Source: a virus. From it: a stretch of 21,157 nucleotides of DNA. Numbering within the stretch: position 1 is the first letter of the stretch; each line of letters opens with the position of its first letter. Below the pieces are notes generated by a model, which saw only the letters and a program-made list of their open reading frames with translations, made no database searches and was not told where the DNA came from. The position numbers were made by a program, and so were the translations under genes. This document shows positions 137-21,157 of the stretch, one piece after another. The stretch lies in the IMG/VR virus record IMGVR_UViG_3300034117_000654, positions 1-21,157 of that record; one strand, 5' to 3'.

Positions 137-733
137 TTATATTATTTCAGTTATTATTTCTCTCATTAAGTCTTGTGCTTTACAGTAATCACCGCAAATA
201 TCAGTTCCGATTTGTTGTAAACCTCTATTAACCGATTCGTTTACAGGTACCATAAATGCACCTTGTGTAGATGGATTACTTACAAAATCCCAGCCAATTA
301 ATTCAAAATCTTCCTGTACTTCTACTTTGTTTCCAGACATTGGTCTTGTAGAACCCATACCTCTTGATGAAATACCTAATAGGATACCAGCTTTTAATAA
401 TTCTTTTAAGATGTTACCAGACGGAGTAGAAAGGACTTCAACAGTTCCACATAAATCATCACCGTCCCAATGAATCTCTCTAATATTGTGAGAAACATTC
501 TTTAAGTTAATTACAGTAGAATCCGGATGGTCTAATTCACCCAATGCTCTACGCTCTTTAATGAATACCTCATACTTCTTAGCTTCTCTCATTAAGATTT
601 CTTTCGGATAAATTCTTCCGTTTTGATTTTCAGCACCAGCTCTTTGTAGAATACCTTTAACAATGGTTCTTCCACCTTCATCTTCTTGTACCTTTCCCTC
701 AAATAATTTTGTTTCTATTAAAAGATTCTTCAT
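137..733 (-). CDS. 21: Prohead core protease, T4 gp21-like (peptidase S80 type)
   Basis: This 198-residue protein matches the T4 gp21 prohead protease family, which cleaves scaffold, core and capsid proteins inside the prohead before DNA packaging. Visible family marks are the RAGxxNxNGRIYP block at 31-43, the LGELDHPDS block at 64-72 with the putative catalytic His69, the GISSRGMGS block at 120-128 with the candidate nucleophile at Ser122 or Ser123, and the WDFVSNPSTQGAFM block at 148-161. The length is close to the usual 200-220 residues. A possible self-cleavage site of the LxE|G kind (L10-F11-E12|G13) lies near the N-terminus. The gene starts 14 bases after the stop of the upstream gene and ends 2 bases before the next start. 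Its place a few genes after the portal agrees with T4 order. Confidence 0.92.
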   Translation of the reverse strand: MKNLLIETKLFEGKVQEDEGGRTIVKGILQRAGAENQNGRIYPKEILMREAKKYEVFIKERRALGELDHPDSTVINLKNVSHNIREIHWDGDDLCGTVEVLSTPSGNILKELLKAGILLGISSRGMGSTRPMSGNKVEVQEDFELIGWDFVSNPSTQGAFMVPVNESVNRGLQQIGTDICGDYCKAQDLMREIITEII

Positions 734-2977: not shown

Positions 2978-4759
2978 TTAAAATTTACTGTCATCTAACA
3001 GATTATTTTCATCTAAAAGGTCAGTTTTTTCAGTTTTTTCACTTAAAATCTTCTTTTTTGCCGAAATTCCGTTTATATATTCTTGTGCTATTTTCTTATT
3101 TGATTCATTTGTACGAGTTTCTCTCTTTCTCTCTTTCTCATTTTCTTTGTTTCCCAATGGGTCTCTACCTAATGGATGTTTATCTTTACCATATGTATTT
3201 CCCTCTCTTGGTCTACCACCTTTATTATCAACAATCTCCTGCTTCATTTTTTCAATCTCCTCCTCTACATTTTGTTGTTGAGGTGGATTTGCTGGGTCTT
3301 GTCCTTGCTGTTCAATTGAATTATAACGGAATCTATCTTTAAGGTCTAATACCATTTTAGCTCTTTCGGTATCCATCTCATCTTCACTTATACCAAATAT
3401 ATTATGATAAACCCAATCGGTAGATAACATGTTTAATGCTTTCATATCACTTGCCAATCTAACTTTTTCACTCCATAAGTTTACTTTTTCTTGCTCATAT
3501 ATTGTAGAAGCGTTTGTTAAAGTAAGTTGGAAGTTTGTCATTTCCGAATCATCTATACCTTGTCCAGCTAAGTGTACAATTGCAATCTTATATAATTCAC
3601 TAACAATTGTTCTTTGAATTCTTTCAATAGTTCTAGCAAAACGAACATCTTGTGCTGCTAAAGTTGCTTTACCATTTACATCTTCTTCATATCCTAAAAA
3701 TGCTTTAGGTATTTTAAGTGCTGCAAATAATTTAGCTTTTAAGTAATCAATATCCTCTATTGCCGTATATTCCAATCCAGACAAGTTGTCAATTGAAGTA
3801 CCGCTATCCCCACCTCTAACAGGTAAGAAGAAATCTTCCGTAAGGTTTTGGATATTGTATTTTAAATTATAATCACCTGTATTTTTATCAACAAATGGAG
3901 TTTTCTTCATTTTGTTAATAATCTTTTGCATGTAGTTATCTACTTCATTAGGATTAATATTACCAATATCAATTTTGAATATTCTTTTTTCAGGAGCTCT
4001 CATAATACGATGAATTAACATCGCATCTTCCATTAATTGTAATTGTTTCCAAACTCTACGGCCATTTTCAATCATAGCTTTACCATATGGAAGGAAGTTT
4101 GTATCTGATAATAAACGGAAGTGAGCTATTTCATAGTTCTCATATTCCTTTTTACCAAATCTATCTAATTCAACTTTAAACTTAACATAGTTTTGGTTCA
4201 TTGGGTCAGTACCTTCCAATCTTTCCGTATTATATACAGAGTATGGAGTTACATTAATAATACCCTTACCTTCTACCATTTCTAATGCTAAAAAGAAATC
4301 TCCGTATTTTACAAGGTTTCTAGTCCAAGGCCAAAGGTTAAATTCTATGTTTATAATATCATAAAATAAGTTATGTAGTATTGCACTTACATTTTCGTTT
4401 GATGATTTGATTGCTAATATATCACCATATTCATTCTTTGTTGTGGATTCATCCGAATAGATATCTAATGCAGATGCTATAATTGGGTCATTATCCATAG
4501 CATCATAATCTCTAAATAATTCTCTACGAACCTGATGGTATGCCATTGATTGTGCACCCTGATTGGTTTCGTAATATGACCTTTGTAATTTTGTATATCT
4601 ATCTCTAAGATTTACAAAATTTGTACTCATTTGCTTTTCATCCGTATCAACAACTCTACGCTTACCGTCTTTATCAACGGTAACAATAGCATTTGTTGAA
4701 AATAATTTCTTTAGTCTACCAAAAAAACTTTTACTGTCATCTAATTCTTGTTCTGCCAT
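2978..4759 (-). CDS. 20: Portal vertex protein, T4 gp20-like
   Basis: This 593-residue protein belongs to the T4 gp20 portal family, the dodecameric ring at the unique head vertex through which DNA is packaged and ejected; it also nucleates prohead assembly. Family marks include YHQVRRELFRDYDAMDNDP at about 74-92 followed by an IIASALDIYSDEST block, RGGDSGTSIDNLSG in the middle of the protein, and the very typical LKIPKAFLGYEEDVNGKATL and QDVRFARTIERIQR segments. The length is near T4 gp20 (524) plus an extended tail. The last 100 residues or so are hydrophilic, rich in Glu, Lys, Asn and Gln, and probably disordered. The gene follows the large terminase after a 64-base gap, whereas T4 has the sheath and tube genes (18, 19) between these two. 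The start ATG has no clear Shine-Dalgarno sequence. Confidence 0.96.
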   Translation of the reverse strand: MAEQELDDSKSFFGRLKKLFSTNAIVTVDKDGKRRVVDTDEKQMSTNFVNLRDRYTKLQRSYYETNQGAQSMAYHQVRRELFRDYDAMDNDPIIASALDIYSDESTTKNEYGDILAIKSSNENVSAILHNLFYDIINIEFNLWPWTRNLVKYGDFFLALEMVEGKGIINVTPYSVYNTERLEGTDPMNQNYVKFKVELDRFGKKEYENYEIAHFRLLSDTNFLPYGKAMIENGRRVWKQLQLMEDAMLIHRIMRAPEKRIFKIDIGNINPNEVDNYMQKIINKMKKTPFVDKNTGDYNLKYNIQNLTEDFFLPVRGGDSGTSIDNLSGLEYTAIEDIDYLKAKLFAALKIPKAFLGYEEDVNGKATLAAQDVRFARTIERIQRTIVSELYKIAIVHLAGQGIDDSEMTNFQLTLTNASTIYEQEKVNLWSEKVRLASDMKALNMLSTDWVYHNIFGISEDEMDTERAKMVLDLKDRFRYNSIEQQGQDPANPPQQQNVEEEIEKMKQEIVDNKGGRPREGNTYGKDKHPLGRDPLGNKENEKERKRETRTNESNKKIAQEYINGISAKKKILSEKTEKTDLLDENNLLDDSKF

Positions 4760-4823: not shown

Positions 4824-6419
4824 CTACAACCATTGGGATAAATCCTCAAAATCATCCCCAACTCTCATTTTCCAAGGGTTATCATTCATTGTATCATTAC
4901 CACCATAAATCCCTTGAGATGTGTTTGATGTGATACCACTTACCGCTTGTTTGGTTAAATCAATACCTTCTTGTCTTAAACGAAGTGCGGTATCTCTAAC
5001 CCATAATCCAATTGATATAGCCATAACTAAGTCATCGTTATAACCTTTCATTGCTTCAGCTCTACCATTCATATAAATAAACGTAAATAATTCATCTATT
5101 AAACGAGATGAACGAATTATAATTGATTTCTCTCTAAAGTAATCAGTTAATTTAGATATGATTAAAGGTCTAGTCTTAGAAGTTGTTGAAAACCCAGCTA
5201 CTAATCCCTTTTCTTCACTTCTATATCTATTTGTCATTTGATGTTGTATATCAATGTATTTTAAATCCTTACTCATATAGAATAAGTTTTTATATCCTCT
5301 ATCAATTACTTGCTGAATTGTTGCCCAACCAATATTTGCGTTCTCTATTACAAGTAATGCATCATTATATTCTGTTGAAAGTGCTACTAAAAAGTTTCCA
5401 AAATCTTTAGTGTCTACCTTACCTCTATATTCTGCAACCTGTACGGAATTCACAATATCAATTACATGACAAGTAGAATAATCGGCACCATCTCCTCTAG
5501 CCACATCGGCCACTACCATATATGATTTAGAATAATCTGCATGCTCCCATTTCCAAAGATTTCCATCAAACCCACCTTTCTCAATTGGTGGTATTACATA
5601 TGTTTCTTTATAGAACATTAATAATTCAGGTTCAATTACAGTTTCACCAGAAGATATAAAATCACAATCACATTCTTGTGCTGCTTTCTTTGTACCCAAT
5701 AGCTTCTCTTGCTCATCTCTCCATTTTTGGTCTCTTTCAGGATGAACTGTCCAATGTAATCTGATTGTATTAAATGGATTTGTACTTTCTTCTGCGCCTA
5801 ACCAAGTTTGGTGAAACCAATTACCCACACCATTTGGCGTAGATAGTGCAATACAAGCCCCACCCGTTGAAAGCGTAGATTGAGCCGATACCCAAATCTC
5901 ATCAATATCATCAATGAAAGCTGCTTCATCAAATATAAGAAGTGATAATGCTTCAGAACGTCCTGCATCAGGAGAACTAGCAATAGCCTTAATTTGAGAA
6001 CCATTTTGTAAACGAAGGGAAAGCTTGTTATCTTCCATTGACCCACCTTTAAGCCAACTTGGAAGTAATTCATGCATCACTCTAACCTTAGTTACTAAGT
6101 TCTTTGCAACTTCTTGCTTTGTTGCGATTACCAACACGTTAAAATCCGTATTGAATATCATTTTCCAAAGTGAAAACCCAGCACAAAGTGTTGAGATACC
6201 AGTTTGTCTTGATTTTAAGACTACATTGAATCTATTATCTTTAAATTGAGTTAAAGTTTTTTCCTGAAATGGGAATAATTGAAATGGTATCTTACCTCTT
6301 ACAGGGTGCTGAATCATACAATACTTCTTCATAAAGTGAATAGGGTCTACCGCACACTTTTTATATTCTTCTGCAATAATCTCTTTTAAGGATTTCTTTT
6401 GTGTTATACCAGTACTCAT
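4824..6419 (-). CDS. 17: Terminase large subunit, T4 gp17-like ATPase/nuclease
   Basis: This 531-residue protein is the packaging motor and headful nuclease. The N-terminal ATPase shows the Walker A variant KSRQTGIST at 69-77, equivalent to SRQxGKT of T4 gp17, Walker B LLIFDEAAF at 160-168 with Asp164-Glu165, and the coupling motif ALSTPNG at 191-197. The C-terminal RNase H-like nuclease supplies three acidic residues: Asp305 in VADVARGDGADYS, Glu359 in LLVIENANIG, and Asp462/Asp463 in GYNDDLVMA. It is somewhat shorter than T4 gp17 (610) and lacks an obvious long N-terminal extension. The ATG comes 1 base after the stop of the preceding Cys4-protein gene, so the two are probably co-translated. 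The portal gene follows after 64 bases. All motor and nuclease residues look intact. Confidence 0.97.
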   Translation of the reverse strand: MSTGITQKKSLKEIIAEEYKKCAVDPIHFMKKYCMIQHPVRGKIPFQLFPFQEKTLTQFKDNRFNVVLKSRQTGISTLCAGFSLWKMIFNTDFNVLVIATKQEVAKNLVTKVRVMHELLPSWLKGGSMEDNKLSLRLQNGSQIKAIASSPDAGRSEALSLLIFDEAAFIDDIDEIWVSAQSTLSTGGACIALSTPNGVGNWFHQTWLGAEESTNPFNTIRLHWTVHPERDQKWRDEQEKLLGTKKAAQECDCDFISSGETVIEPELLMFYKETYVIPPIEKGGFDGNLWKWEHADYSKSYMVVADVARGDGADYSTCHVIDIVNSVQVAEYRGKVDTKDFGNFLVALSTEYNDALLVIENANIGWATIQQVIDRGYKNLFYMSKDLKYIDIQHQMTNRYRSEEKGLVAGFSTTSKTRPLIISKLTDYFREKSIIIRSSRLIDELFTFIYMNGRAEAMKGYNDDLVMAISIGLWVRDTALRLRQEGIDLTKQAVSGITSNTSQGIYGGNDTMNDNPWKMRVGDDFEDLSQWL

Positions 6420-7155: not shown

Positions 7156-10146
7156 TTAAGAATCAAAAAATATGCCTAAAATCTGATTAAGCGGTGCGAA
7201 TGCACCTGTTAGTTTATAAGTGTTTCCCCCATATACGAATACCAATCCCTCATTTGGTACGATTTTATCAAATCCACCTAAAGCTTGCATCCTACTTAAT
7301 TCTAATTTAAGTTTTGCAATCTTTTTAGGGTCACCACTTGCTTTTACTTGAGATATTGTACTTTGTAATTTTGCTTTCATTTGTTTAGTAGCTTCTGCAG
7401 GATTTGCAGTTAATACTGATGTCATAAATGATAATACATCTGCACCAACACCTAAAAATATTTCCTCAAATCTCATTAAGTTTTGTTTTGATATTTTTTG
7501 TTGGTCTTGTTTATCCGTTTGTTCGGCCCAAGCTCGTATCTTATCATCCTTTATATCCCCTATACGAAAACTTTTATCTAAAAAAGCCCATCTTTTAATT
7601 AATCCTATTTTTTGCTGTGCATCCAATTTCTTTGCTCCCTTTTCTACAAAATTTGTCCACCATGCCTGATGATAATCTGCTACACCATCCGAGTCAGCTA
7701 ACCCAAATTCAGATTGTAGTTTAGAAATCATTCCCAAATATTTTCCTTGTAATTTAGAAAGATGCTCGGTTTTAGGAAGTGTTTGCATTGGAGGTCCCTG
7801 GATTGTATATTTAGATTGAACATGTGCATTTACTTGCTTAATCATTCCACCTAATACTTTTGCTGCGTCTTGATTTTGTCCAATTATAGTACCAGCCATA
7901 TCATAATCAAAAGTACCATGAAATACTAATAGGGGTTGATTGTAAGGGATTACGTTTACAGACGTTGGATATATTACTTCCAAATTCATAAACGAACTAC
8001 CATCCTTAAAAACCTTCTTACGTTGAGGTTCGGATAATGCTGCAATTGCTTTGGATAAATCTTGCATAGCGAAGTTGTAAGCATCAGTTAATCCACCTCT
8101 ACCGGCAAACTTATCTGCTACTTGTCCTATTGTCATAGCACCAACTCCTTTATCTTTTAAGTGAGATTTGTTACGAGCTGCAACCAATCTACCATTTACC
8201 CAACTAATTGCTAATGCCTGCCCATCAGTTTTTTCTCTTGCTAATTCCAAATCACCATTAAGGGCTCTTACTACTATTTGTTTAAGGTCACCAAATGTTA
8301 AACCCATTTCAATATCAAATGGATGTGCCATATGTCCATAAGCCCCACCTTCTAATAATATTGATTCTTTTATTGGGGTTTCAATTTTAGCTAACTTATC
8401 ATAGTATTTTAAATCTTCCCATAAATGGTCCATAGCTATTTCAGTTGCATATCTAATATCAGATGTATGCTCCATTTCAACTTTAATACCTTTTACCAAT
8501 TGAGGTTTGATATATTCTTCTGCAAATTGTTTTGGGTCATAATATCCTTTAGAATCCCACTTATTAGCCAAATCAATTAAAGTTTTACCATTTGCCAAAC
8601 CACCAGGAATTTTATCATTTATTTCTTTAACAGGCTCATATCCTTTATTTTGTGTATCTTTAGTATTTGTTTGGTGGCCTGGTTTAATTTTTCTATCATC
8701 ATCAAAATCTATTGTATCCAACTCGGCTCCATGTCCATAGTCAGGCGCATATGTAGAAGTTTTATGGTGATGTAAAAAATTATGTTCAGCATCTGTTTCT
8801 GCTTTATGATTTTTAGAATTTGTAACTTCATCAACTTCTTCATATTCATCATCACCATCTAATTTAGATTTTAATTTCTTAACATCTTTAGTATCAGGTG
8901 CCCCATTGATATATCCACCTGGCAAACTTAATCCAACACCAGCTCCACCGGGAAATCCCATCTCATCTAATAGGTTATCAAAATCTTCAACTATTTCTTT
9001 AATATCTTCTTTTGAAATTATTGTATCTTTTTGATTTTCAGGAAGTTCCCAAAATCTTTTAGGTTTTTTTACTGCTTTTTTAGGTTTTACTTCTTTCCAA
9101 TCTTCAACTTTATGTGGGTCATCTGCTGGGTTTAATGTGCTTTTTTCTACATTATTTATTTTGTAATACGATTTTCTAAATTGAGTTTCAGTATCTTTTG
9201 ATTTACCAACCCCTCTCATATTATCCGCTTTAGGTTTGTCTAATTGAGTGTATCCACCTTGCTTATACCAACCTTCAGGTTTTTCTTTGTTTAATATTCG
9301 TTTGTTTCTATCCGCAACAAATGAGGTATCCGGTTCAGCAGTTCCACTAAATCCTGCATTAGATGCGGCTTCTTTCAATTCTTCTTTTTTAGGAATTCTA
9401 AATGTTGCTACCTTCTTACCATTTATTGTTGGCATTCCCCAATCATCAGTTCCTATTGTTTTTACAACTACTTTTTTATTTTTAAATCTACCCATTAGAA
9501 TAGTATCTCCAATTTTTACATTTATTTTAATTTCCTCATTAATACATTCTTTTAAACTCTTTAACTTAAGGGTAATTAATTTGAATATTTGTTCATCAAA
9601 TTTAGGATATGCTTTTGTAAAGTTTTTCTTTCTATCGGCAGCGCTTCCAGCACTTAACCAATAACGAACATCAGTACCACTAATTGGGTTTGATGCTGAT
9701 GGGGATGCGTACACATATCCTCTATCTAAATATGGTTGAGTTACCTTTCCTTTATATGGTGTGAAATATTTACCACTTAAACGATTTTCATCTTTCTCAC
9801 CAACTACAACTATTAAACCAGTTGTATCTTCATCGTATTTGTTTAGAATTTCTTCAGGTGCATATGGATTTTTAATACTGACTATTTTGTTTGATGGAAT
9901 ACCAAACATCGTTGTCATTATTACTTTCTTTTCCTTAAAATTAAATGGAGATTTCTTTGAATCGGTAACATTAGAAGTTCCGATATATACACTATCCTTT
10001 CCGAATTTGCGTACTAAATTATCATAAGTTGCGTAATGTCCCTTATGAAATGGTTGAAAGCGGCCCGAATAGACAACAACTACTTTGTCTATCTTAGCCG
10101 CCTCTCCCAATATTGTTTCTACTAAAAAGTTTGATAATTCGCTCAT
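7156..10146 (-). CDS. NMNAT-like nucleotidylyltransferase fused to DUF5661-like and ligase-like (DUF6267-type) domains
   Basis: This is a 996-residue multidomain protein. Residues 20-200 form an NMN-adenylyltransferase-like domain with GRFQPFHKGH at 28-37 (the HxGH site) and ISGTDVR at 155-161, the counterpart of ISSTxxR; such enzymes join ATP to NMN to make NAD. A small beta-rich module follows at about 205-252, then a charged low-complexity linker (255-455) with a His-rich patch near 455-461. A DUF5661-like stretch spans 520-590 (VEMEHTSDIRYATEIAMDHL). The C-terminal 400 residues resemble the T4-like family I recall as DUF6267 and carry ligase-type motifs: Lys639-Thr-Asp-Gly642, Arg658-Asn-Lys, NLEV at 721-724, EGLVF at 966-970 and YKLT at 977-980. 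Candidate prohead-protease sites are LGE15|A16 and LLE599|G600. The NMNAT call is strong; the ligase fold is inference from motifs, and the substrate is unknown. Confidence 0.88.
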   Translation of the reverse strand: MSELSNFLVETILGEAAKIDKVVVVYSGRFQPFHKGHYATYDNLVRKFGKDSVYIGTSNVTDSKKSPFNFKEKKVIMTTMFGIPSNKIVSIKNPYAPEEILNKYDEDTTGLIVVVGEKDENRLSGKYFTPYKGKVTQPYLDRGYVYASPSASNPISGTDVRYWLSAGSAADRKKNFTKAYPKFDEQIFKLITLKLKSLKECINEEIKINVKIGDTILMGRFKNKKVVVKTIGTDDWGMPTINGKKVATFRIPKKEELKEAASNAGFSGTAEPDTSFVADRNKRILNKEKPEGWYKQGGYTQLDKPKADNMRGVGKSKDTETQFRKSYYKINNVEKSTLNPADDPHKVEDWKEVKPKKAVKKPKRFWELPENQKDTIISKEDIKEIVEDFDNLLDEMGFPGGAGVGLSLPGGYINGAPDTKDVKKLKSKLDGDDEYEEVDEVTNSKNHKAETDAEHNFLHHHKTSTYAPDYGHGAELDTIDFDDDRKIKPGHQTNTKDTQNKGYEPVKEINDKIPGGLANGKTLIDLANKWDSKGYYDPKQFAEEYIKPQLVKGIKVEMEHTSDIRYATEIAMDHLWEDLKYYDKLAKIETPIKESILLEGGAYGHMAHPFDIEMGLTFGDLKQIVVRALNGDLELAREKTDGQALAISWVNGRLVAARNKSHLKDKGVGAMTIGQVADKFAGRGGLTDAYNFAMQDLSKAIAALSEPQRKKVFKDGSSFMNLEVIYPTSVNVIPYNQPLLVFHGTFDYDMAGTIIGQNQDAAKVLGGMIKQVNAHVQSKYTIQGPPMQTLPKTEHLSKLQGKYLGMISKLQSEFGLADSDGVADYHQAWWTNFVEKGAKKLDAQQKIGLIKRWAFLDKSFRIGDIKDDKIRAWAEQTDKQDQQKISKQNLMRFEEIFLGVGADVLSFMTSVLTANPAEATKQMKAKLQSTISQVKASGDPKKIAKLKLELSRMQALGGFDKIVPNEGLVFVYGGNTYKLTGAFAPLNQILGIFFDS

Positions 10147-10632: not shown

Positions 10633-11781
10633 TTATAAGAATTTTTCTAATTCTTTTATTACCATTTCAGATGTTATTGATTTTGTACATTCAAATTGTC
10701 TTTCAGTACCTTTGTGGTCAGGACACCAATTCCAATCACTAGCATTCAATCTTAATCTGTTAAAACATCCTTCACATTTACCCTTTGGTGCAGAAATTCT
10801 ATAACAATCTGTCATTTCAGCCCAATCATATGAGAATCCACTAATTAGAACAGTTGGAACATTTAAACTCCAACTTAACCAGCTAAGTCCACTACCTATA
10901 CCAATAAATGCTTTTGATTTTAGCATTTCATCCATTACTAATTCTAAAGGTCCATTTGGATGCTTTACAACTCCGTTTGGTAATTTATTTCCCATATAAT
11001 CATCACCTTCCTTAGATACTAATTTTACTGTATAACCTTTATTGTTTAACCAATCTACAACATCTTGCCATCCGGTTGGATTATTCCAAAATTTAGATTG
11101 TGCCGTTCCAAATACACCAATACACACTTGTTTAAGAGTTGGGTCTATTTTTACATTTCTCTTTTTTATTTTTGTTCTAACTTCTACAAAATCCAATCCC
11201 AATATATCCGAACACATTTTTTGCATTGTTTGTGTTTTAGGGTCTATTGGATTTTTAAATAAATTTACAGAACTATCATCATTATAAAATAAACCAACAC
11301 AATACATAGCATATAAGTTTTCAACTCCCATCCCTGGAGTTGTAAATGTTATATTAGGATATTGTTCTATAAACATATCATTCATAAATGTGGAAGCTAT
11401 TACTTCGCATTGATGTTTTTTTCTAAATTCTTCAACATATGCAACCCAAGCTAAAGAATCCCCTAAAGCCCTTGAATCCATTGCTATATAAACACGCTTA
11501 CCTTTTGCATTATAAATGTATTCGTACCATAATTTATCATTTTCATAAATTTTTATTTTCCATTCTACACAATATTCTATACTACACTTGCACCAACAAT
11601 TATTTTTTATTGTTGTTGAGTAATGTATTTTATTTGTTTTATTATCTATGAATTCAACTTTATATTCTGAATTTGTACTTCCTTTTATTTCCACATACGG
11701 TCCTTTAACAAAATGAATTATCACTTTATTTTTTACCTCAACTATATTATTTTTGTTCTTTTTTAAATTATCGTATATCAT
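10633..11781 (-). CDS. Autotransporter-type protein O-heptosyltransferase homolog (GT9-like, Cys4 iron-finger)
   Basis: The 382-residue product resembles bacterial autotransporter heptosyltransferases such as TibC and Aah, which attach heptose to Ser/Thr of beta-helical surface proteins. An N-terminal beta-rich accessory domain (about 1-95) with a short Cys cluster (CWCKC) precedes a GT-B, GT9-like core. The core has YIAMDSRALGDSLAW at about 98-112, with an Asp where the family's catalytic base lies, GVFGTAQSKFW at about 222-232, and IGIGSGLSWLSWSLNVPTVLISGF at about 293-316 (quoted only as a position guide: GSGLSWL, VPTVLISGF). The C-terminal Cys336-x2-Cys339-x13-Cys353-x11-Cys365 matches the iron-finger signature of this family. 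ATG at 11781 overlaps the upstream stop (TAATG); a TTG at 11790 would add three residues and is less likely. Substrate is unknown; a phage fibre or a host surface protein are both possible. Confidence 0.85.
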   Translation of the reverse strand: MIYDNLKKNKNNIVEVKNKVIIHFVKGPYVEIKGSTNSEYKVEFIDNKTNKIHYSTTIKNNCWCKCSIEYCVEWKIKIYENDKLWYEYIYNAKGKRVYIAMDSRALGDSLAWVAYVEEFRKKHQCEVIASTFMNDMFIEQYPNITFTTPGMGVENLYAMYCVGLFYNDDSSVNLFKNPIDPKTQTMQKMCSDILGLDFVEVRTKIKKRNVKIDPTLKQVCIGVFGTAQSKFWNNPTGWQDVVDWLNNKGYTVKLVSKEGDDYMGNKLPNGVVKHPNGPLELVMDEMLKSKAFIGIGSGLSWLSWSLNVPTVLISGFSYDWAEMTDCYRISAPKGKCEGCFNRLRLNASDWNWCPDHKGTERQFECTKSITSEMVIKELEKFL

Positions 11782-13958
11782 TAACTCCAAGTTTTAACTG
11801 TTAAATCCAATAAAGAGAATCCCTCCGCTTGCTTACTATACATTTTATTTGTTGTATATCTTGGTCTTGGGTGATTTATAAATACGTGATTATACCAAAG
11901 GTCACCAACATCCCAACCACAATCTTTAAGTCTATCTACCCACCATTGTTTCTCTCTATTTGGAATTAAATAACAATGTGCAAGGTCTTGATTCGGTGCT
12001 GTTTTTGAAAACAACTCATCTATTTTTTCTTTACTTCTAGATGGATTATCTGCGAATGAAATGAATGGTACATCATCTCTTTCTGATAAGAAACATGCTC
12101 TATGTACAATCTCAACAAATTCTTCTAATCCAGTATAGATAAATGCATCTGCTTCAAATACTAAAGTGTAATCAAAGTTTTCAGTATCCATAGTTTCCAA
12201 TGCCATTCTATGTGCTAAATAACATCCATAGTGTCTACCAGTCATCCAACCCAAACCAGCACCAGGGTATAATTCACCCGGCTTATTATCTTTACTTATA
12301 TGTTCAGGCCTTCTACAATTTTCAGCCGGTGCAAATCCTTCGTATGGTTGGTTTACAATTGGTTCGTAATACATACCATACTTTTCTAATTGTTTAATAG
12401 ATTGAATAGATACTCTTTCTCTCATATCATTCGGTCTAGTCAACATATGCTTTATTTGAATACGAGGTTTCTTACGATACCAAGTTCTAAATCCTCTATT
12501 AAATTGTTTATAAAAGAATTCATCAGCTGCTTGTGTTACACCGGGAAAGAAACTTCCACCATAATCATCACCACTAATAATTCCACCCGGTTTTACTTTA
12601 TTATACCAAATATTAATATCATTTTTCACATCTTCATAACTATGCCCAGCATCTAACATTATATAATTTATACTATTGTTACTAAATTGATTAGCTGCAT
12701 TATGTGAAGTATCTTTTATAATATTAAAAGAATCATAGTTGTTTGATAGTACTGTGTTATCTATAAATTCATAAAATATATCTCCGTTAAATGTTCCAAC
12801 GATGTTTTGATGCAATTCTTCGTTATCAGTTCCTTTGAAAGTATCTACTGTTGTAAAATTAATAAATTTACCACATTCTTTTAATTTGGTTAATAAATAA
12901 TTTGTAGATTTACCAAACCAAGTTCCTACTTCAACAAATGTATCTCCATTATTTAATATAGTAGATGCATTATCATATAAATCTTGATATGAAAACCAAC
13001 CAGGTATTTCATTAAATTCCGGTTGTAGTGTTTCTAATACAATTCTTTTAGTTAATTTTAAATCTTCATCAATATAAGTTACCAATGAATTATTATCATA
13101 TGTATCTAAATATGTATGCAGTTTTCTAAATACAGAAGGAAGTTTATATGAAAGTGCTTCCTTAATTGATAACGGATTTAATTCTATTTTTGATGCAAAA
13201 TAAAACATATCACATGCTGCATAGAATGTATCAACGTCAGTTCGCTCTCCCCATATAATACAATTTTCAGGTTTATATTCCATTAAAGGTTTCCAGTAGT
13301 GTTCAAAGTTTCCAGCTTGATTTCCTACAAAGTGAAATTTAATTTTATATTTTTCTAATTGAGTTGCTATTGCAAATATTTCACCTTGGTTTTTGCCAGG
13401 TGAAAATAATCCAACATTAAGTACATGCTTCCAAGTTGGGTCTAATCCTAATTCTTTTTGTGCAGCCTCCTTATCAAATACATAATCTTCAATAGGGTAT
13501 TGCCATACATCGGTTTCTACTCCAGTTTCAATAAATCTCTGCCTACTCCATTCCGATACTAAAATGTATCTATCAGGATGATATGCTATTTCAGGTGGAT
13601 TTGTTAATGAACCATGTGTAGATGCTACAATAAAATAAGGTCTATCTTGTCTAAAAATAACGTCCAATGCAAATGGTGGTAAATCAAATTGTGGGATTTC
13701 CTGAAAATGGATTATATCAGGTTTAAAATCTTCAATTATTTGTAATATCCTAGATTTATCTTCCGCTAACGTATGTATTGGTACTAATGATTTTATTCTA
13801 TTTTTTTGAACTACAAAAGCATCACCACCACTATTGTTTATTTCAACAACTTCAATTTCAAAATCTTTTATGAATTCTTTTACCTGCTTATATAGGTATT
13901 GTGGTTGGCCCCCAGTAGAAAGATGCGGAGCAACATAAAGTAACTTCTTTTTTGGCAT
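11781..13958 (-). CDS. Three-domain fusion: GT4-like glycosyltransferase, class I methyltransferase, GT25-like glycosyltransferase
   Basis: This 725-residue protein joins three enzymes. Residues 1-310 form a GT-B glycosyltransferase of GT4 type, with LYVAPHLSTGGQPQYL at the N-terminus, NVGLFSPGKNQ at 181-191 and the E-x7-E pair Glu259/Glu267 in IELNPLSIKEAL. Residues 315-485 form a SAM-dependent methyltransferase (Methyltransf_24-like) with FVEVGTWFGKST at 341-352, VDTFKG at 371-376, IMLDAGHSYEDV at 433-444 and VKPGGIISGDDY at 455-466. Residues 500-725 resemble GT25 enzymes, with HMLTRPNDMRERVSIQS at 504-520, GCYLAHRMALETM at 578-590 and LVFEADAFI at 599-607 in place of the usual LIxEDDA. No membrane segment is seen. 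It has its own host-like promoter and is coupled by TAATG to the heptosyltransferase homolog, so both probably build one glycan. The sugar donors are unknown. Confidence 0.88.
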   Translation of the reverse strand: MPKKKLLYVAPHLSTGGQPQYLYKQVKEFIKDFEIEVVEINNSGGDAFVVQKNRIKSLVPIHTLAEDKSRILQIIEDFKPDIIHFQEIPQFDLPPFALDVIFRQDRPYFIVASTHGSLTNPPEIAYHPDRYILVSEWSRQRFIETGVETDVWQYPIEDYVFDKEAAQKELGLDPTWKHVLNVGLFSPGKNQGEIFAIATQLEKYKIKFHFVGNQAGNFEHYWKPLMEYKPENCIIWGERTDVDTFYAACDMFYFASKIELNPLSIKEALSYKLPSVFRKLHTYLDTYDNNSLVTYIDEDLKLTKRIVLETLQPEFNEIPGWFSYQDLYDNASTILNNGDTFVEVGTWFGKSTNYLLTKLKECGKFINFTTVDTFKGTDNEELHQNIVGTFNGDIFYEFIDNTVLSNNYDSFNIIKDTSHNAANQFSNNSINYIMLDAGHSYEDVKNDINIWYNKVKPGGIISGDDYGGSFFPGVTQAADEFFYKQFNRGFRTWYRKKPRIQIKHMLTRPNDMRERVSIQSIKQLEKYGMYYEPIVNQPYEGFAPAENCRRPEHISKDNKPGELYPGAGLGWMTGRHYGCYLAHRMALETMDTENFDYTLVFEADAFIYTGLEEFVEIVHRACFLSERDDVPFISFADNPSRSKEKIDELFSKTAPNQDLAHCYLIPNREKQWWVDRLKDCGWDVGDLWYNHVFINHPRPRYTTNKMYSKQAEGFSLLDLTVKTWS

Positions 13959-14328: not shown

Positions 14329-17300
14329 TTAAGAATTAAGTTTAGATTCTAAATCCCTAACTTTTAAGGTTAATTCTTGAACTGCTTTCCATAGAACAAA
14401 TACTAATCCTTGCTTATCAATACCAGATGTCATCCATTTTTTATCTCCAGTTGGATTTTCCTCATCCTCATAATGCCAATCAAAATCAACCCAATCTTCA
14501 AAGCCAGCAGCAACTACTTCTTCCGCAATTACACCAGTTTGAATAGGAGGATTTTCTAAATCTTTATCAGCTTTCCAATAGTAATTTACAATTGGAACAC
14601 TTAATATTTTATCTAATAAATTATCAGGTTCCCAACTTGTAATATCATATTTATGCCTTATACACGAAGTATCTCTACCAATAGTCCAGTTACTAAGTGA
14701 TATTTCTAATCCTCTACGAGTTCCACCACCGGGACTATATAAACCAAATAAATAAACCGTAGGGAATGTTTCTCCACCCTGAGTTGTATATGTTAATTGT
14801 CCGGCTTTTCCATTACTTGCTTGCCAGTTAGTAAAACCAGTTCCTAATGATATGTTATTACCATTAGTATTAATGTGTCCAGCAGATGCTTCTATATTAA
14901 TTGCATTTCCACTACTTGTACCTTTTATCTGAACAGTTGAGTTTGTACCATCTCCAGTTAATTCGTACCACCCCTTTGATGTTAATACTGGGAGTGCTGT
15001 TGATGTACTTTTTTCTGCTTTAAAATATTTGTCTGTACCAGATGCAATTTGAATACCTGCACTTGTCAACTCAACTATTTCACTAAGTTTATTTAATTGT
15101 ATTGCTGGGAATGTTTGTGCGAAGAAAACATCAACATTACCACTAATAACAGCCCCCCATTGACTATGCCAAGGGTATGCATAATATGTTATACCGGCTT
15201 CTAAAGTAAGTGTTTGATTAGTGTTTCCTGTTCCCGTAACCGATGCACCAGTACCAGAGATATAAGTTGAAACATCAAAGTAACCTGCTGTAAGTGATGC
15301 GAATACAGTACCAGTTGGGTCATCTGTAGTGAATATATCAAATCCAAACTCTCCATTAATTACACCTGACCAAGGTGTATTTGGAGTGACTCCTACGTTA
15401 TTAGCAGAAAAATCAATATCACCATCTGAATATGTACCAGTAGCTCCTGTTAAATTAATTGCTGTACCATTGCCAGCTGTAAGTGTATAGTATTTAGTAG
15501 AACTATTACTCAAATATGTACTAGAATTGGCCGAACTTATTGTTGGTAAACTATCATTTATTGTAGCTACGGTAACGTTGACAGTACTTCCCCCAATTAC
15601 TGATAAAGCGCCTTTTTTTAATATCAAATCAGGATTACCACCGGCTGTTGTTTTTATGTAAATACTATTATTAGCTGCATCCAAAAATAAAGTAGATAAA
15701 TTATTTCTAATTAAACCAGAATCAATTATCCATCCATCAATACCTCCCAAATAACCACTATCAGCAGTGACTGAACCTGCAATAGTTAAGTTAGTACCAT
15801 CAAAATATAATCTATTTCCAAGTGAGAATTGACTGTTATTATCTACATAAAATGAAGTGTTTGAATTTTGATAAGTACCAGTTCCAATATAAATCTTTTT
15901 ATTAGTTCCATCTAATGTAATACCATTATTACCTACTTTAAATGTATTGGAAAAATAACCATTAACACCAGCAATCACAGGTGAATATATAAAATTAGAT
16001 GATATAAATGTACCAGGAAATGCACCATCTGCTAATTGTTGAGTTTTAGCTACTGCATTGGTAAATGCTGCACTTGCGGTTAGATTAGCTATATTTGCTG
16101 CCGAAGTAAGAGCAATTGCTGCTGAACTAGATGCTTGTAGAGATGCATATGCTTGCGTTGATGCATTACCACTACCTCCCATTATATTTAAATCTCCAGA
16201 TAATTCCAAACCAGTACCAGTCCATCTAAGATAGTTAGTACCGGTTGCATTTTTTAAAGAGAATCTTGGTTTATATTGAGTAGGCCCAGTTCCATCATTA
16301 TAAATACCCAACCATATACCAATATTGTCGTATCCAATTGTAGCGTATTGTCCAATTGCCATATACGGGTCTTCTCTACCACCAGCTAATACAATGTTTG
16401 CATAAGCACTACCACTATTATTACCAATATTAATTGTATTTTTTACAAATGATTCTTCAAATATTGCAATCTTAGCTGCCACAAAGAATTCTTCTTCTCC
16501 CAAATATTGCCACCAAGCGTTATCACCACCTGTGTTCGGTGCATGATAATTAACTAAAGTACCTTGCTTATTATATGTTGTTGGACCACTTCCACTAATT
16601 GCTGCATAATAAGTTACGGGAGATGTTCCATAAATAACCGCATCTCTTCTTGTATTTTGTGTTTCAACTGAACCACTATAATCTGTTGCATTATTCCATT
16701 CACCTCTCATTACAATACCAGGTCCAGTTGCTCCTTCTATTTGTATTGATAATGATTGTGTTTTATATAATGTTTCTCTACCTTCACATTCAATTTGATA
16801 AACTATTTCCGCAACAGTATTTGTTGATGGGTCTGTCCAATTTGTTATTGGTGGCATTGTAGCAGGAACACCGGTTACAAAGCTTCCATTTAACCAACTA
16901 TTTGGTAAAGTTAGCCAAGATGATTTTGAAAGTATAGAAACTCTACATTTATCCTTTGATAATCCAGTAGTACCATATGCATCAGTATCAGTTGCTGGTA
17001 ATGGATTTGTATTTGTTAATTCAGTACCTCCTCTATAAACTCTAATTTGATTACCAGTCCCAGATGTTGTAAATTCCCCAGATACTTTATAAACTGCAGA
17101 TGAATTTTCATTAGTCATCTTTATATCATACGGCGCAGGTGGTGTAAATTGTACAGCTATTGATTGAGTCACAAATTGAGTCTGTCTGGCCAAAGGTCTT
17201 ACTAATGGGTTGGTTGTAGATGAATCTCCCTCAAAATCTATTCTATATACAATTTGTCCAGATTTATTGGTTGCTGGGCTAAGCCAATCGGTAATATTTC

Positions 17301-20300
17301 CAATTTCTGCAGGATTTGACGATGGGAATTTTGTATCTGCCATAGTAACCCAAGCAGGTTTTGAAAATATGGATGCCGATGAATATCCCAACGCCCCAAT
17401 CGGGTTTCCCTGAAAGTCTAAATTTTCATCATATAAATTTGCTTGCGGTAATGGATGTTGGTTTGTTAATTGTTGAGTACCATTAAATGTGGTAATTTTC
17501 ATACCAGTTCCAGCAAACTGAGTTGTCCATAAATCTGCTGTTATAGAAGTACTTTCGTTTGATGCTACTAACTTATATGAATCTGCGCCGGCTTTTACAC
17601 CTGATATTGTTAATTGAGCTTCTGCTCTATATGGGTTTATTGTTGCAGATGTATATGGATTACCATCGGTGATTTTAACCGTAAATTTTTTTATTTCATC
17701 TGGCGCAATATCATTAAAGTTAACTGGAGTTGAAAAAACAACAGATGCTGGTGTCCCATTTCCTACAATGTTTTCAACTTCGGCCCCATCATTATCAAAT
17801 AAATAAAAATGTACTTTATCAGCAGATGATGTTGTGTTAAAAGCAGTTGCCGATAGTTCACTTCCTCCATAAGATGCAGGTGATACCCTACCATTTCTGT
17901 CATAGTTTATTGTGTATGCGGATGCTTTAAAATCAATACTACGAGCTTTTGGTGGAGTTACATTTTTTGTAAATGTTTGAGTTCTTGTATAGATTGATGA
18001 TGTTGGTAAATGCCCAGCTCCCAATGCGTATGGATATACTTGAATTGTATAAAGTGCACTTGCAGAAACATACGGATAATCAAATCTATCATAATTCATT
18101 CTTCCTGTTAATCCGGTTTTAGATGAACTTATTGATTGTGAGAAAGAACCAGTTAATATACTTCTAATATTTCCAAATTTTGTTTCTATTAAATTTATTG
18201 TATATGTACCCTTTCTATCATCGGCGTTTGCAAAAGATTCGGTTGTTGTTAATTTTAAAAAGTCTTCACCTTCTTTAACTTGTATTGTTGTATTAGCTGC
18301 TGAATATCCAGATGGGGTAATGTATCCAACTTCATCTGCAGTTAATGCTACCGATGTTGGTGATATTACTATTTGAATTGGTGGCGCTCCTTCTAATATT
18401 TTTGTATAATTTACAACTACACTTGCGGTATAGATTGATGATGTAAAATATGGATGAACCACTAACATATATTCTATACTTCCACTTAAATCTCGTAATT
18501 CGGATGATGCACTAATTATTAAAGATGCGGTATATGGCGTTCCAAATGATGATGTTAGATGTAAGTTTCCAGCTTTTACATTTTTTTCTATTATAGATGC
18601 CGTTGGGAATGTTACATTAGATAAGTAAAAAGTACCATGTGTATTTAAATTATTTGGAGTATATGCACTTGAACTAAACGCAAGGTATCTAGCACCTTGT
18701 TTTAATTTAATATCCGTAATTGAAGGTCTAAAATCATTTATAACACCTCTTGAGTTTGCTCCAAGAGTTATTGCAATTGGATTAACTTCAAATATAATAC
18801 TTTCATCTCCTTGCTTACCTTCTGGTACAATTGTGAATGTTTTATCTAAACTAACCGATGCCGATGTCCAAGGTTCAGTATATGTAAATGTTAATGTTAA
18901 ATTTTTAGTTTGGTTTAAAGGACTTCTTACATTACCACTTACTACTTGAGATGGGATTATATTTTTATTCTCATCTCTAGCAACAACCGTTAAAGTTGGG
19001 TCTAAACTTTGTGTATGATAATATAACCAATATTCAGGTACCCAATCTTTATTAATTGACATTGATGGATAAATCTGAAACGATGATGTTACTGATTGAA
19101 TTTCTCCGGGTGCTGTCCCTCTTTTTGCAAATGATGCGGTAGCAAATCCAAACACAGGTTTAAATAATGTTTCTGTTCTAGGATTTATTGTGAATGAATC
19201 TGCATTATATATAACAACACCACTATCTAATCCATCTTGCAAATCCTCCAATATAATAGATGCTAATACAGAAGAAGATACCTCATATGCAAATTTACCT
19301 GCGTTTGATGATGATGGTATTAAAAAAATTGTTCTTCTAAAATCTATTGAATCTCTATCAAATACTGCATTATAATCTATCTGCTTGCTACCCAAAGAAC
19401 CAGTAGTTAATCCATAAAACATACCACTTGCAGTTACATACGATAAGTTTACAAATTTATCTGGTTCTAAATTTGGATTTATTTCATAATTTTTTGAACG
19501 AGATAATATATGTAATTGTATATCAGAATAATTTTTTAAAGCTTGTTTACTTAAAATAATATCGTTTATACCATCAATTCTTACCGCTTGAATTTCTAAA
19601 GATGCCGTGCTACTATTTCTAATTTGAGTTCCTCTATAAGGTCTAATGATATGATTAACTCCACCAAACCCGTCTAATATTTTATATATGTTAATTGTAT
19701 CGGTAAATCCTTCACACTCTCCAGTTAGTTTTACCAATTGAACATTTATATCAGTACGAGAACCTGTGAAATTATTAACAGTCATTAAGACATTATCAGT
19801 TCCGATTCCGTTTAACAAACCAGGAAATTGTGCACCAGAACCAGTATATGCTCCAGATGCTGATAAATCATTTCCAAAAAAATCAAATGATGCAGATGTA
19901 TAATGTACCGAACCTGTTAGTAAAGTTTTTTCTTCTTCTATTGTTATAATTGTAGGTGGTACTGGATTAGAACCAGAATCAAATTGAAATCCTGCACTTG
20001 ATGCTATTAATCTTAATTGTTTGCGTATTGTTTGTAAGTTACCACCATCAAAAGTTTTGGTTTCTTCAACCAATACAGGTATATAATTATTATTTATATC
20101 ATAAAATTCAAAACGATATACAAACGTTTCCGCTGGTAAACTTCTTGGTACTGGTTGTACGAATGTAATTTCATCAGGGGAGAATGCAGTTTCTTGTGAT
20201 GCCTTTAAACTAACATCTGCTATATACCAATCACTTCCTTTTATATCAAAATATAATTTAGCATTATCTATTTGTTCTGCTTTTATATTTTCAGTAATAT

Positions 20301-21157
20301 TTTGTTTTTGAAGTAAAGCGTTTTGAGTTTTTAATGTTGTTATACTTTGCTTTACTTGTACAGTGGTTGGTGAACCATTTATTGTTATTTGTTTAGAACC
20401 ACTTAAATATGCTTCAATATAATTGTTAAGATTACCAACTGCTTCTTTTTTAACATTAAAATCTAAAGTGTATTCAATACCTTCATTTATATTAAAAGAT
20501 TTTGTTGTAAAGAATTTTTCAACTCCAATAGTACTATTTAGTTTTAAGGAATTATATAAAAAAGTTTGATTAAATGTAGTTACTAAATTATTTGATGATG
20601 ATACCCAATATTCTTTAAAATTACTATTGTCAAATAATCCATAGTTTTCTTGATTCTTTGTAGTAGATGCTAAATCAACTAAAATTTCATTTGATTCTAA
20701 TTGTATTTCTTGAACAAATTGAAAATCCGATAAATCTGCTGTTGATTTTCTGAATATTTTTACTCTAGCACAATCCCCAACAAACGTAGTTAAATCTGCC
20801 AATGTTATTTTTGCAAAAGAACCGGTTAAAGCTGTTTTTAAATTATCTACTCCTTCTGTATAATTAAATGTTGCAGTAAATGTTTCATTTGTAAAATTTT
20901 CAATTGGTGCAGCTGAACCAAATGCCGTATTAGTATATGGTGGCTGTACTAATATTTCTCTTGAATTAATTACTTCCGTAACTAATGGGGAATACTCTAT
21001 ACCAGGAATATCCAAATATGTTCCTACAACAGATGCTGTCCAAAATGTGTTTCCAACAGTTGTTAATAAATATTCTGTGGGTTGTGTAAAATTTAGTAAT
21101 GTTTGTCCTAAACTTGGCGTTAATGCCTGCCCATTTACAATACCAGTTTGAGTTTTT
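14329..21157 (-). CDS. Giant tail fibre / tip adhesin with Ig-like modules and S74 chaperone domain (5' end beyond window)
   Basis: The frame is open to the right edge. The 47 codons before the TTG at 21015 (reading KTQTGIVNGQALTPSLGQTL and on) continue without a stop, so that TTG is internal and the protein exceeds 2,270 residues. Numbered from 21015: 1-700 is beta-rich, Ser/Thr/Asn-rich sequence; 728-1427 holds five Ig-like modules; a GATGPG hinge lies at 1428-1433; a Trp/Tyr-rich segment (1437-1505) looks like a small carbohydrate-binding module. Residues 1616-1660 are Ala/Ser-rich, likely a trimeric coiled coil. Residues 1690-1770 show short beta repeats (LYFDGTNLTIAGSVTAD). The last 112 residues are a peptidase S74 intramolecular chaperone. 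The protein most likely binds the host surface. Whether it is a tail fibre, a central tip or a side fibre cannot be told from sequence. Confidence 0.93.
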   Translation of the reverse strand, partial: KTQTGIVNGQALTPSLGQTLLNFTQPTEYLLTTVGNTFWTASVVGTYLDIPGIEYSPLVTEVINSREILVQPPYTNTAFGSAAPIENFTNETFTATFNYTEGVDNLKTALTGSFAKITLADLTTFVGDCARVKIFRKSTADLSDFQFVQEIQLESNEILVDLASTTKNQENYGLFDNSNFKEYWVSSSNNLVTTFNQTFLYNSLKLNSTIGVEKFFTTKSFNINEGIEYTLDFNVKKEAVGNLNNYIEAYLSGSKQITINGSPTTVQVKQSITTLKTQNALLQKQNITENIKAEQIDNAKLYFDIKGSDWYIADVSLKASQETAFSPDEITFVQPVPRSLPAETFVYRFEFYDINNNYIPVLVEETKTFDGGNLQTIRKQLRLIASSAGFQFDSGSNPVPPTIITIEEEKTLLTGSVHYTSASFDFFGNDLSASGAYTGSGAQFPGLLNGIGTDNVLMTVNNFTGSRTDINVQLVKLTGECEGFTDTINIYKILDGFGGVNHIIRPYRGTQIRNSSTASLEIQAVRIDGINDIILSKQALKNYSDIQLHILSRSKNYEINPNLEPDKFVNLSYVTASGMFYGLTTGSLGSKQIDYNAVFDRDSIDFRRTIFLIPSSSNAGKFAYEVSSSVLASIILEDLQDGLDSGVVIYNADSFTINPRTETLFKPVFGFATASFAKRGTAPGEIQSVTSSFQIYPSMSINKDWVPEYWLYYHTQSLDPTLTVVARDENKNIIPSQVVSGNVRSPLNQTKNLTLTFTYTEPWTSASVSLDKTFTIVPEGKQGDESIIFEVNPIAITLGANSRGVINDFRPSITDIKLKQGARYLAFSSSAYTPNNLNTHGTFYLSNVTFPTASIIEKNVKAGNLHLTSSFGTPYTASLIISASSELRDLSGSIEYMLVVHPYFTSSIYTASVVVNYTKILEGAPPIQIVISPTSVALTADEVGYITPSGYSAANTTIQVKEGEDFLKLTTTESFANADDRKGTYTINLIETKFGNIRSILTGSFSQSISSSKTGLTGRMNYDRFDYPYVSASALYTIQVYPYALGAGHLPTSSIYTRTQTFTKNVTPPKARSIDFKASAYTINYDRNGRVSPASYGGSELSATAFNTTSSADKVHFYLFDNDGAEVENIVGNGTPASVVFSTPVNFNDIAPDEIKKFTVKITDGNPYTSATINPYRAEAQLTISGVKAGADSYKLVASNESTSITADLWTTQFAGTGMKITTFNGTQQLTNQHPLPQANLYDENLDFQGNPIGALGYSSASIFSKPAWVTMADTKFPSSNPAEIGNITDWLSPATNKSGQIVYRIDFEGDSSTTNPLVRPLARQTQFVTQSIAVQFTPPAPYDIKMTNENSSAVYKVSGEFTTSGTGNQIRVYRGGTELTNTNPLPATDTDAYGTTGLSKDKCRVSILSKSSWLTLPNSWLNGSFVTGVPATMPPITNWTDPSTNTVAEIVYQIECEGRETLYKTQSLSIQIEGATGPGIVMRGEWNNATDYSGSVETQNTRRDAVIYGTSPVTYYAAISGSGPTTYNKQGTLVNYHAPNTGGDNAWWQYLGEEEFFVAAKIAIFEESFVKNTINIGNNSGSAYANIVLAGGREDPYMAIGQYATIGYDNIGIWLGIYNDGTGPTQYKPRFSLKNATGTNYLRWTGTGLELSGDLNIMGGSGNASTQAYASLQASSSAAIALTSAANIANLTASAAFTNAVAKTQQLADGAFPGTFISSNFIYSPVIAGVNGYFSNTFKVGNNGITLDGTNKKIYIGTGTYQNSNTSFYVDNNSQFSLGNRLYFDGTNLTIAGSVTADSGYLGGIDGWIIDSGLIRNNLSTLFLDAANNSIYIKTTAGGNPDLILKKGALSVIGGSTVNVTVATINDSLPTISSANSSTYLSNSSTKYYTLTAGNGTAINLTGATGTYSDGDIDFSANNVGVTPNTPWSGVINGEFGFDIFTTDDPTGTVFASLTAGYFDVSTYISGTGASVTGTGNTNQTLTLEAGITYYAYPWHSQWGAVISGNVDVFFAQTFPAIQLNKLSEIVELTSAGIQIASGTDKYFKAEKSTSTALPVLTSKGWYELTGDGTNSTVQIKGTSSGNAINIEASAGHINTNGNNISLGTGFTNWQASNGKAGQLTYTTQGGETFPTVYLFGLYSPGGGTRRGLEISLSNWTIGRDTSCIRHKYDITSWEPDNLLDKILSVPIVNYYWKADKDLENPPIQTGVIAEEVVAAGFEDWVDFDWHYEDEENPTGDKKWMTSGIDKQGLVFVLWKAVQELTLKVRDLESKLNS
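14332..14667 (-). other. Peptidase S74 intramolecular chaperone domain of the fibre
   Basis: The final 112 residues start at the Ser of DTSCIRHKYDI, with the S-x4-K spacing of the Ser-Lys dyad used for self-cleavage in endosialidase-type fibres. They continue with NLLDKILSVPIVNYYWK, TGVIAEEV, GIDKQGLVFVLWKAVQEL and a terminal coiled coil. Known S74 domains trimerise the fibre and then cut themselves off just before the Ser. Here that would release the part encoded by 14332-14667. Confidence 0.88.
16735..18834 (-). repeat. Array of five diverged Ig-like modules within the fibre
   Basis: Modules begin near 18834, 18402, 17973, 17610 and 17166 and end at 16735, each about 120-150 residues. They share an opening such as FTIVPEGKQG or KILEGAPP, then an SPTSVALTADxxGxI-like strand, a core with I.....G, and an ending YxxxxxPY...S.Y or YRIDFEG / YQIECEG. 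The last two are the most alike: TQQLTNQHPLP against GTELTNTNPLP, IFSKPAWVTM against ILSKSSWLTL, and ITDWLSPATN against ITNWTDPSTN. The protein-level repeats are diverged; I saw no long DNA-level repeat. Confidence 0.7.

Follow-up and report, generated by a model that had tools for sequence, protein, structure and literature searches.

Results

A 996-residue reading frame in a head-gene neighbourhood

The window, a 21,157-base IMG/VR fragment, encodes on its minus strand a 996-aa protein (Table 1), and the plus strand over the same positions is rich in stops. The terminase, portal and prohead protease genes all share the strand of this ORF, forming a head-gene neighbourhood, and the protease aligns with T4 gp21 across the GEL(D/N)HP and SSRG motifs. 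Elsewhere on the minus strand, positions 11781-13958 encode a 725-aa protein with a glycosyltransferase group 1 domain, a methyltransferase domain and a weak glycosyltransferase 25 match, and positions 14329-21015 encode a fibre-like protein of great length, whose Peptidase_S74 chaperone domain lies close to its C-terminus.

When the chain was compared with those of its relatives, both ends were conserved and the middle was a mosaic. The aa 205-259 module sits right behind the leader in some marine relatives, the end of the aa 385-440 module matches the position of a recurrent alignment break (aa 440), and GYEPVKE, similar to the ending of the aa 441-508 module, stands before the NMNAT domain in some marine relatives. 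From its sequence, the protein thus looks like a head-region modular polyprotein, a point missing from the first-pass annotation of this DNA.

Table 1. Features of the locus (a slash within a motif marks the module junction or candidate cleavage point)
Feature	Positions	Strand	Remarks
T4 gp21-type prohead protease (Peptidase_S77)	137..733	minus	E 1e-26; candidate cutter of the polyprotein
T4-type portal protein	2978..4759	minus	
Terminase large subunit	4824..6419	minus	second gene downstream of the 996-aa ORF; a 227-aa ORF in between
996-aa polyprotein-like ORF	7156..10146	minus	ATG at 10146
Leader MSELSNFLVETILGE, aa 1-15	10102..10146	minus	candidate capsid-targeting propeptide; ends in site LGE/A
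NMNAT-like domain, aa 16-200	9547..10101	minus	HxGH = HKGH, ISGTDVR; family profile
Small module (KIGDTILMGRFKNKKVVV...), aa 205-259	9370..9534	minus	ends KEELKE/AASN
Variable stretch, aa 260-384	8995..9369	minus	ends DIKE/IVED
Module (GVGLSLPGGYINGAP), aa 385-440	8827..8994	minus	ends YEEVDE/VTNS
Module, aa 441-508	8623..8826	minus	ends YEPVKE/INDK
Module with DUF5661, aa 509-599	8350..8622	minus	Pfam aa 548-589, E 2.7e-7; ends ILLE/GGAY
RNA-ligase-like nucleotidyltransferase domain, aa 600-996 (397 aa)	7159..8349	minus	alignment, predicted structure, weak Pfam
K639, motif I (KTDG), predicted adenylylated lysine	8230..8232	minus	invariant (n=49); register of Pfam RNA_ligase matches
E723, motif III (NLEV)	7978..7980	minus	invariant (n=49)
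E966, motif IV (EGLVF)	7249..7251	minus	invariant (n=49)
K978, motif V (YKLTG)	7213..7215	minus	invariant (n=49); T replaces the second lysine of KxK

The N-terminal domain is of the NMNAT type

The annotation had taken HxGH (FHKGH) and ISGTDVR as marks of an NMNAT-type domain, and this reading held. GRFQPFHKGH lies at aa 28-37 and ISGTDVR at aa 155-161, and Pfam CTP_transf_like matches aa 25-161 above its gathering cut-off (E 1.3e-7, 32.3 bits vs 21). GRxQPF, H37 and SGTxxR are kept in an alignment of 27 relatives, and of the 11 PDB matches to the profile of the NMNAT family 10 are named NMNATs, the other being entered as hypothetical protein MJ0541. Judged by sequence, aa 16-200 is an NMNAT-type domain, with NMN as its putative substrate. 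In many marine loci (for example L094, L136 and L142) GxHH (QPFGPHH) stands in place of HxGH, so that substrate or mechanism might differ in those.

The C-terminal domain carries invariant nucleotidyltransferase motifs

Five motifs resembling those of covalent nucleotidyltransferases, KTDG, RNK, NLEV, EGLVF and YKLT, had been listed in this order for the C-terminal region, and all were found at the positions given (K639, E723, E966 and K978). Because short motifs such as KxDG occur by chance, conservation was chosen as the criterion. In an alignment of 49 sequences that are 37-98% identical to the window protein (residue numbers are P0002 numbering + 599), the five residues on which the annotation had staked the nucleotidyltransferase reading, K639, D641, E723, E966 and K978, are all invariant, as are R658, K660, H605, H608, P609 and F610. 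The same five are invariant in a 9-sequence set covering jumbo phages and the Microcystis phage Mel-JY01. Motif V reads YKLTG or YKFTG, with a single lysine, and so departs from the canonical KxK. The distance from motif III to motif IV, previously flagged as unusually long at about 240 residues, is 243.

In a viral-contig search, 497 stretches encoding relatives were confirmed and 80 of them retained, and in an alignment-based search 516 were confirmed, with 80 more distant ones retained; single-sequence scans for distant relatives found few or none. Pfam returned no match for aa 600-996 of the window protein itself. By hmmscan, RNA_ligase (PF09414) was weakly matched by 30 of the 49 members (best E 9e-4) and the next family by 4; the PF09414 matches that were viewed all score <27 bits, below the curated cut-off, and cover profile positions 5-33, the EKxDG...ARNK stretch at the motif I end. 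When the ligase-like family was searched by sequence in the PDB, all that came back were helical matches (eS6, TetR), which look spurious and were set aside. Two relatives have one in-frame stop each within the domain, at differing positions (L043 2692-2696, L086 2824-2828), and a distant homologue (24%; L372 6001-7227) lies on a 410-kb contig that is binned as a Firmicute and is possibly a large phage.

The predicted fold resembles that of RNA ligases

The structure predicted for the ligase-like domain (pLDDT 83, pTM 0.76) places strands and helices in the ligase order of motifs I, III, IIIa, IV and V, and shows a helical insertion, about 170 residues long, between IIIa and IV, which accounts for the long spacing between motifs III and IV. 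When the model was compared with the PDB by Foldseek, ranks 1-20 were all ligases, 19 of them RNA ligases, including archaeal-type RNA ligases (8uce/2vug), T4 Rnl1 (2c5u) and Naegleria Rnl (5cou); rank 13 is an Aquifex protein annotated as a putative ATP-dependent DNA ligase. E-values ranged from 0.02 to 0.7 (best 0.021), with prob up to 0.75 and low TM-scores. As no single match is significant, the argument lies in the consistency of the matches, and the structural comparison that the annotation had proposed leaves the ligase fold well supported, short of proven. Altogether, aa 600-996 very probably form a covalent nucleotidyltransferase of the RNA-ligase type.

The weak fold E-values and the KxT form of motif V would also fit a degenerate ligase fold that serves only for structure or binding; this we hold to be quite improbable, since none of the catalytic positions varies among 49 diverse sequences. 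A role as replicative DNA ligase was judged unlikely because a 274-kb relative already encodes a DNA ligase. Mel-JY01 and LR756508 carry canonical RNA ligases separately.

The two domains recur together

The fusion of the two domains in one phage protein, as first read from this sequence, is real and recurs. Both domains were found in 115 ORFs; the sole ORF with NMNAT alone has a ligase-like ORF directly downstream on the same contig, and most ORFs that show only the ligase-like domain are interrupted by a contig end. The 639-aa protein of Mel-JY01 is the simplest form, and L130 has a two-domain form of 650 aa. In the jumbo phage L084, neighbouring genes encode first a 421-aa ligase-like protein and next a protein of 653 aa that ends in an NMNAT domain; a DUF5661-like gene follows. 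The N-terminal part of this 653-aa protein (L084 9298-11259; ENLDGSTVYV...IIFEG...DSIVF) resembles a second, lysine-less ligase-like domain.

A comparable pair occurs in cyanophages, where the 591-aa protein S-PM2d138 of Synechococcus phage S-PM2 has DUF6267 (E 2.8e-113) in front and NMNAT behind it. In a set of 99 unique DUF6267 loci, one of them unassessable, NMNAT is fused in 23 and encoded by the next gene in 75, that is in 98/98 assessable loci; the family members are related, so that these counts, and the junction and leader statistics given below, are not independent. The pair thus exists in three arrangements, with NMNAT first, with the ligase-like domain first, or in adjacent genes, and the pairing is not accidental.

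DUF6267 itself has KWDG, QGD, EGxV and VK motifs in the order of the ligase-like family, with a similarly long gap, and an HxxH stretch precedes motif I in both. An affinity to DUF6267, the family named in the annotation, stood only in part: Foldseek matched the ligase-like model to the S-PM2 DUF6267-NMNAT protein (E 3.6e-4), whereas the Pfam HMM (PF19782) matched neither the window nor the loci of the ligase-like family and profile-profile comparison of the two families was not significant. The structure predicted for DUF6267 (pLDDT 80, pTM 0.68) retrieved no ligase from the PDB. The two families are likely related, but on account of these profile-profile scores and of the PDB search the relationship stays unproven, and the DUF6267 label was not adopted for the window protein. 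In cyanophages the DUF6267-NMNAT pair is located among replication genes and has no comparable leader, so head delivery cannot be essential to the pair.

NadV and the source of NMN

Every phage NadM is said to come with a NadV (PMC9503650). Among six genomes searched, NadV was present in G001 and could be found in none of the others, Mel-JY01, S-PM2, immuto, LR756508 and G002 (the last possibly incomplete); the window, for its part, covers only a fragment. NadV-NadM salvage was therefore rejected as a general explanation, and the source of NMN must be the host or a reaction that uses NAD+.

One such reaction would be that of an NAD+-dependent ligase that recycles its own cofactor: taking AMP from NAD+ releases NMN, from which NMNAT and ATP would restore NAD+. 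The near-obligatory pairing in three arrangements and the need for another source of NMN in the five genomes speak for such a cycle. Against it, the LigA-type NMN-binding Ia domain was not recognised in the ligase-like domain and the top fold matches are nearly all RNA ligases. Known RNA ligases of the matched kinds use ATP, which also counts against it. We regard NAD+ dependence with such recycling as possible, though unlikely; an ATP-dependent ligase accompanied by an NAD+ supply is the likelier arrangement.

Companion domains point to RNA repair

In longer marine relatives (about 1,100-2,463 aa), a P-loop domain matching AAA_33/zeta toxin often precedes NMNAT, and one has a weak phrog polynucleotide-kinase match. 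The longest chain (2,463 aa, L085 1896-9284) joins kinase-like, PolyA_pol, PolyA_pol_RNAbd, HD, NMNAT and ligase-like domains. PolyA_pol, PolyA_pol_RNAbd and HD together are the domain set of CCA-adding enzymes. Kinase, CCA-adding and ligase enzymes are tools of phage tRNA repair (surveyed in PMC7824862), and by their sequences these companions are pointing to RNA (tRNA) repair. The 274-kb relative encodes 26 tRNAs (L249) and a tmRNA (L253 11074-11460).

Other modules were also seen. One relative (L094 1450-5058) has a Zn_protease domain (PF05618) in its variable middle, at aa 424-546. Flavobacterium phage immuto encodes, in its pre-terminase region, a protein annotated as NMNAT in which a zincin-like HEMIHH motif occurs; this protein (gp088, L259 1-2604) also carries a GSKADFGDLDI nucleotidyltransferase-like motif and an NMNAT-like GGFKPPHLAH. 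A Vibrio phage has a DUF5661-DUF2213 fusion among its late genes.

Leader and module junctions resemble prohead-protease sites

T4-type and giant-phage prohead proteases cleave after Glu (PMC5694885); in T4, gp21 cuts gp24 at MAKINELLRE/S, removing the first 10 residues, and gp23 at FLTE/A, removing 65 (PMC9958956). T4 IPI has STITE/A, the cut position being assigned in this analysis, and the capsid protein of a relative of the window phage has LLDE/ATQ where T4 has FLTE/AEI. The window leader is amphipathic and resembles T4 capsid-targeting peptides. As a sequence pattern, a hydrophobic-x-Glu site is present in 39 of 45 family leaders (for example MNKLTEWLTKPFLDE and MKGLAKFLVETILGEAA) vs 35% of other ORFs.

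Similar sites coincide with the module junctions. In 61 of 62 unique windows a hydrophobic-x-E site immediately precedes NMNAT, vs 51% of shuffled and 30% of random ones; the modules preceding NMNAT differ, yet the site stays. BLAST segments between family members end <=6 aa from hydrophobic-x-Glu in 62% of cases vs 24% at random, with the peak at offset 0, and when duplicate contexts were removed, module ends lay <=2 aa from such a site in 34% vs 10%. Hydrophobic-x-D, -Q, -A, -S and -G were below chance at module ends. [KR]xE was 4.3x enriched there, so that the T4-type motif does not make up the whole junction signal, and many marine members have LLLM/GG in place of LLxE/GG ahead of the ligase-like domain, so that this junction is not always cuttable.

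These last two features would fit one enzyme with several functions that stays uncut throughout, its hydrophobic-x-Glu junctions reflecting recombination at short homologous linkers. The junction sequences are mutually similar (KEELKE, YEEIDE, YKKVNE), could stem from such recombination and could alone promote shuffling. We find an uncut enzyme rather doubtful, as the leader, the prohead protease and the head-gene context speak against it, as do the capsid-protein site of the same residue class and the lack of enrichment of the other hydrophobic-x residues.

Discussion

The reading that we favour, to which we give about an even chance, is that the protein is a head-associated, protease-cut 'polyvalent' polyprotein of a T4-like phage that delivers RNA-repair and NAD-making domains. 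The amphipathic leader would carry the chain into the prohead core, where the gp21-type protease would cleave after hydrophobic-x-Glu wherever two modules meet. This would release NMNAT, several small modules and the RNA-ligase-type nucleotidyltransferase, which would enter the host together with the DNA. There the ligase domain would self-adenylylate on Lys639 and join RNA ends, in all likelihood those of tRNAs cut by host defence nucleases, with end healing supplied in the longer relatives by the kinase-like domain and the CCA-adding/HD enzyme. NMNAT would turn NMN into NAD+ at the same place, replacing NAD+ used by host defences or by repair. What the computation establishes is the fusion, the conservation, the pairing, the RNA-ligase-like motifs with their fold trend, the leader pattern and the match of sites to module junctions; packaging, cleavage, injection, the enzymatic activities, the tRNA substrate and the purpose of the NAD link are inferred from these. 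That such a capsid-delivered chain of shuffled modules, punctuated by prohead-protease sites, also holds an NAD+-dependent RNA ligase recycling NMN through its linked NMNAT is quite improbable in our estimate.

The two activities might instead be independent counter-defences packed together, NMNAT restoring NAD+ drained by host NADases and an unrelated RNA ligase standing beside it as another piece of the same arsenal. Polyvalent proteins do unite disparate activities (PMC5512222), and phages are understood to make NAD+ as a counter to NADases (PMC9503650). We consider this somewhat unlikely: the pair is kept in all assessable DUF6267 loci, beyond what a loose arsenal predicts, and most genomes searched yielded no NadV.

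Polyvalent proteins of phages and conjugative elements carry disparate enzymatic domains and are believed to enter the host along with the DNA (Iyer et al. 2017, PMC5512222). The window family likewise holds several unrelated enzymatic domains in one phage polypeptide; it differs in that zincin-like metallopeptidases are the proposed processors there and a prohead protease is proposed here. The text of that paper leaves NMN enzymes unmentioned, and it links none of its 2H domains to RNA ligases. The internal, or ejection, proteins of T4 (IPI-III, Alt) bear a capsid-targeting sequence (PMC3012670, PMC5694885, PMC9958956) and share with the window ORF, which also lies near head genes, a short N-terminal leader with a gp21-type site and fast-changing content, but they are separate proteins, whereas here, from sequence alone, one long chain of many modules is known.

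S-PM2d138 has in one protein an NMNAT domain and the ligase-like motif order, with a motif III-IV gap of ~245 residues; it differs from the window protein in its reversed domain order, its replication-gene surroundings, the lack of a leader and the insignificant profile-profile score. RNA ligases share the order of the KxDG, RNK, E, EG and K motifs and are the best fold matches, and the window domain departs from them in its helical insertion, its KxT motif V and its below-cut-off scores. With the NadM/NadV salvage of phages (PMC9503650) the family shares a HIGH-type NMN adenylyltransferase, but it has no recognised Nudix domain and NadV was mostly not found. A literature search for the NMNAT-ligase pairing and for a protease-punctuated chain found neither, most subscription journals lying outside its coverage, and searches on DUF6267, the T4 leader sequence and Mel-JY01 retrieved no papers.

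If this reading is true, hundreds of freshwater and marine T4-like viruses would hold a virion-delivered kit that couples RNA sealing to NAD+ supply. It would provide a testable function for the ligase-like family, and perhaps for DUF6267, common in the cyanophage loci examined, and would add an undescribed branch of RNA ligases with a helical insertion. Prohead proteases, beyond acting on single head proteins, would then also mature an arsenal polyprotein.
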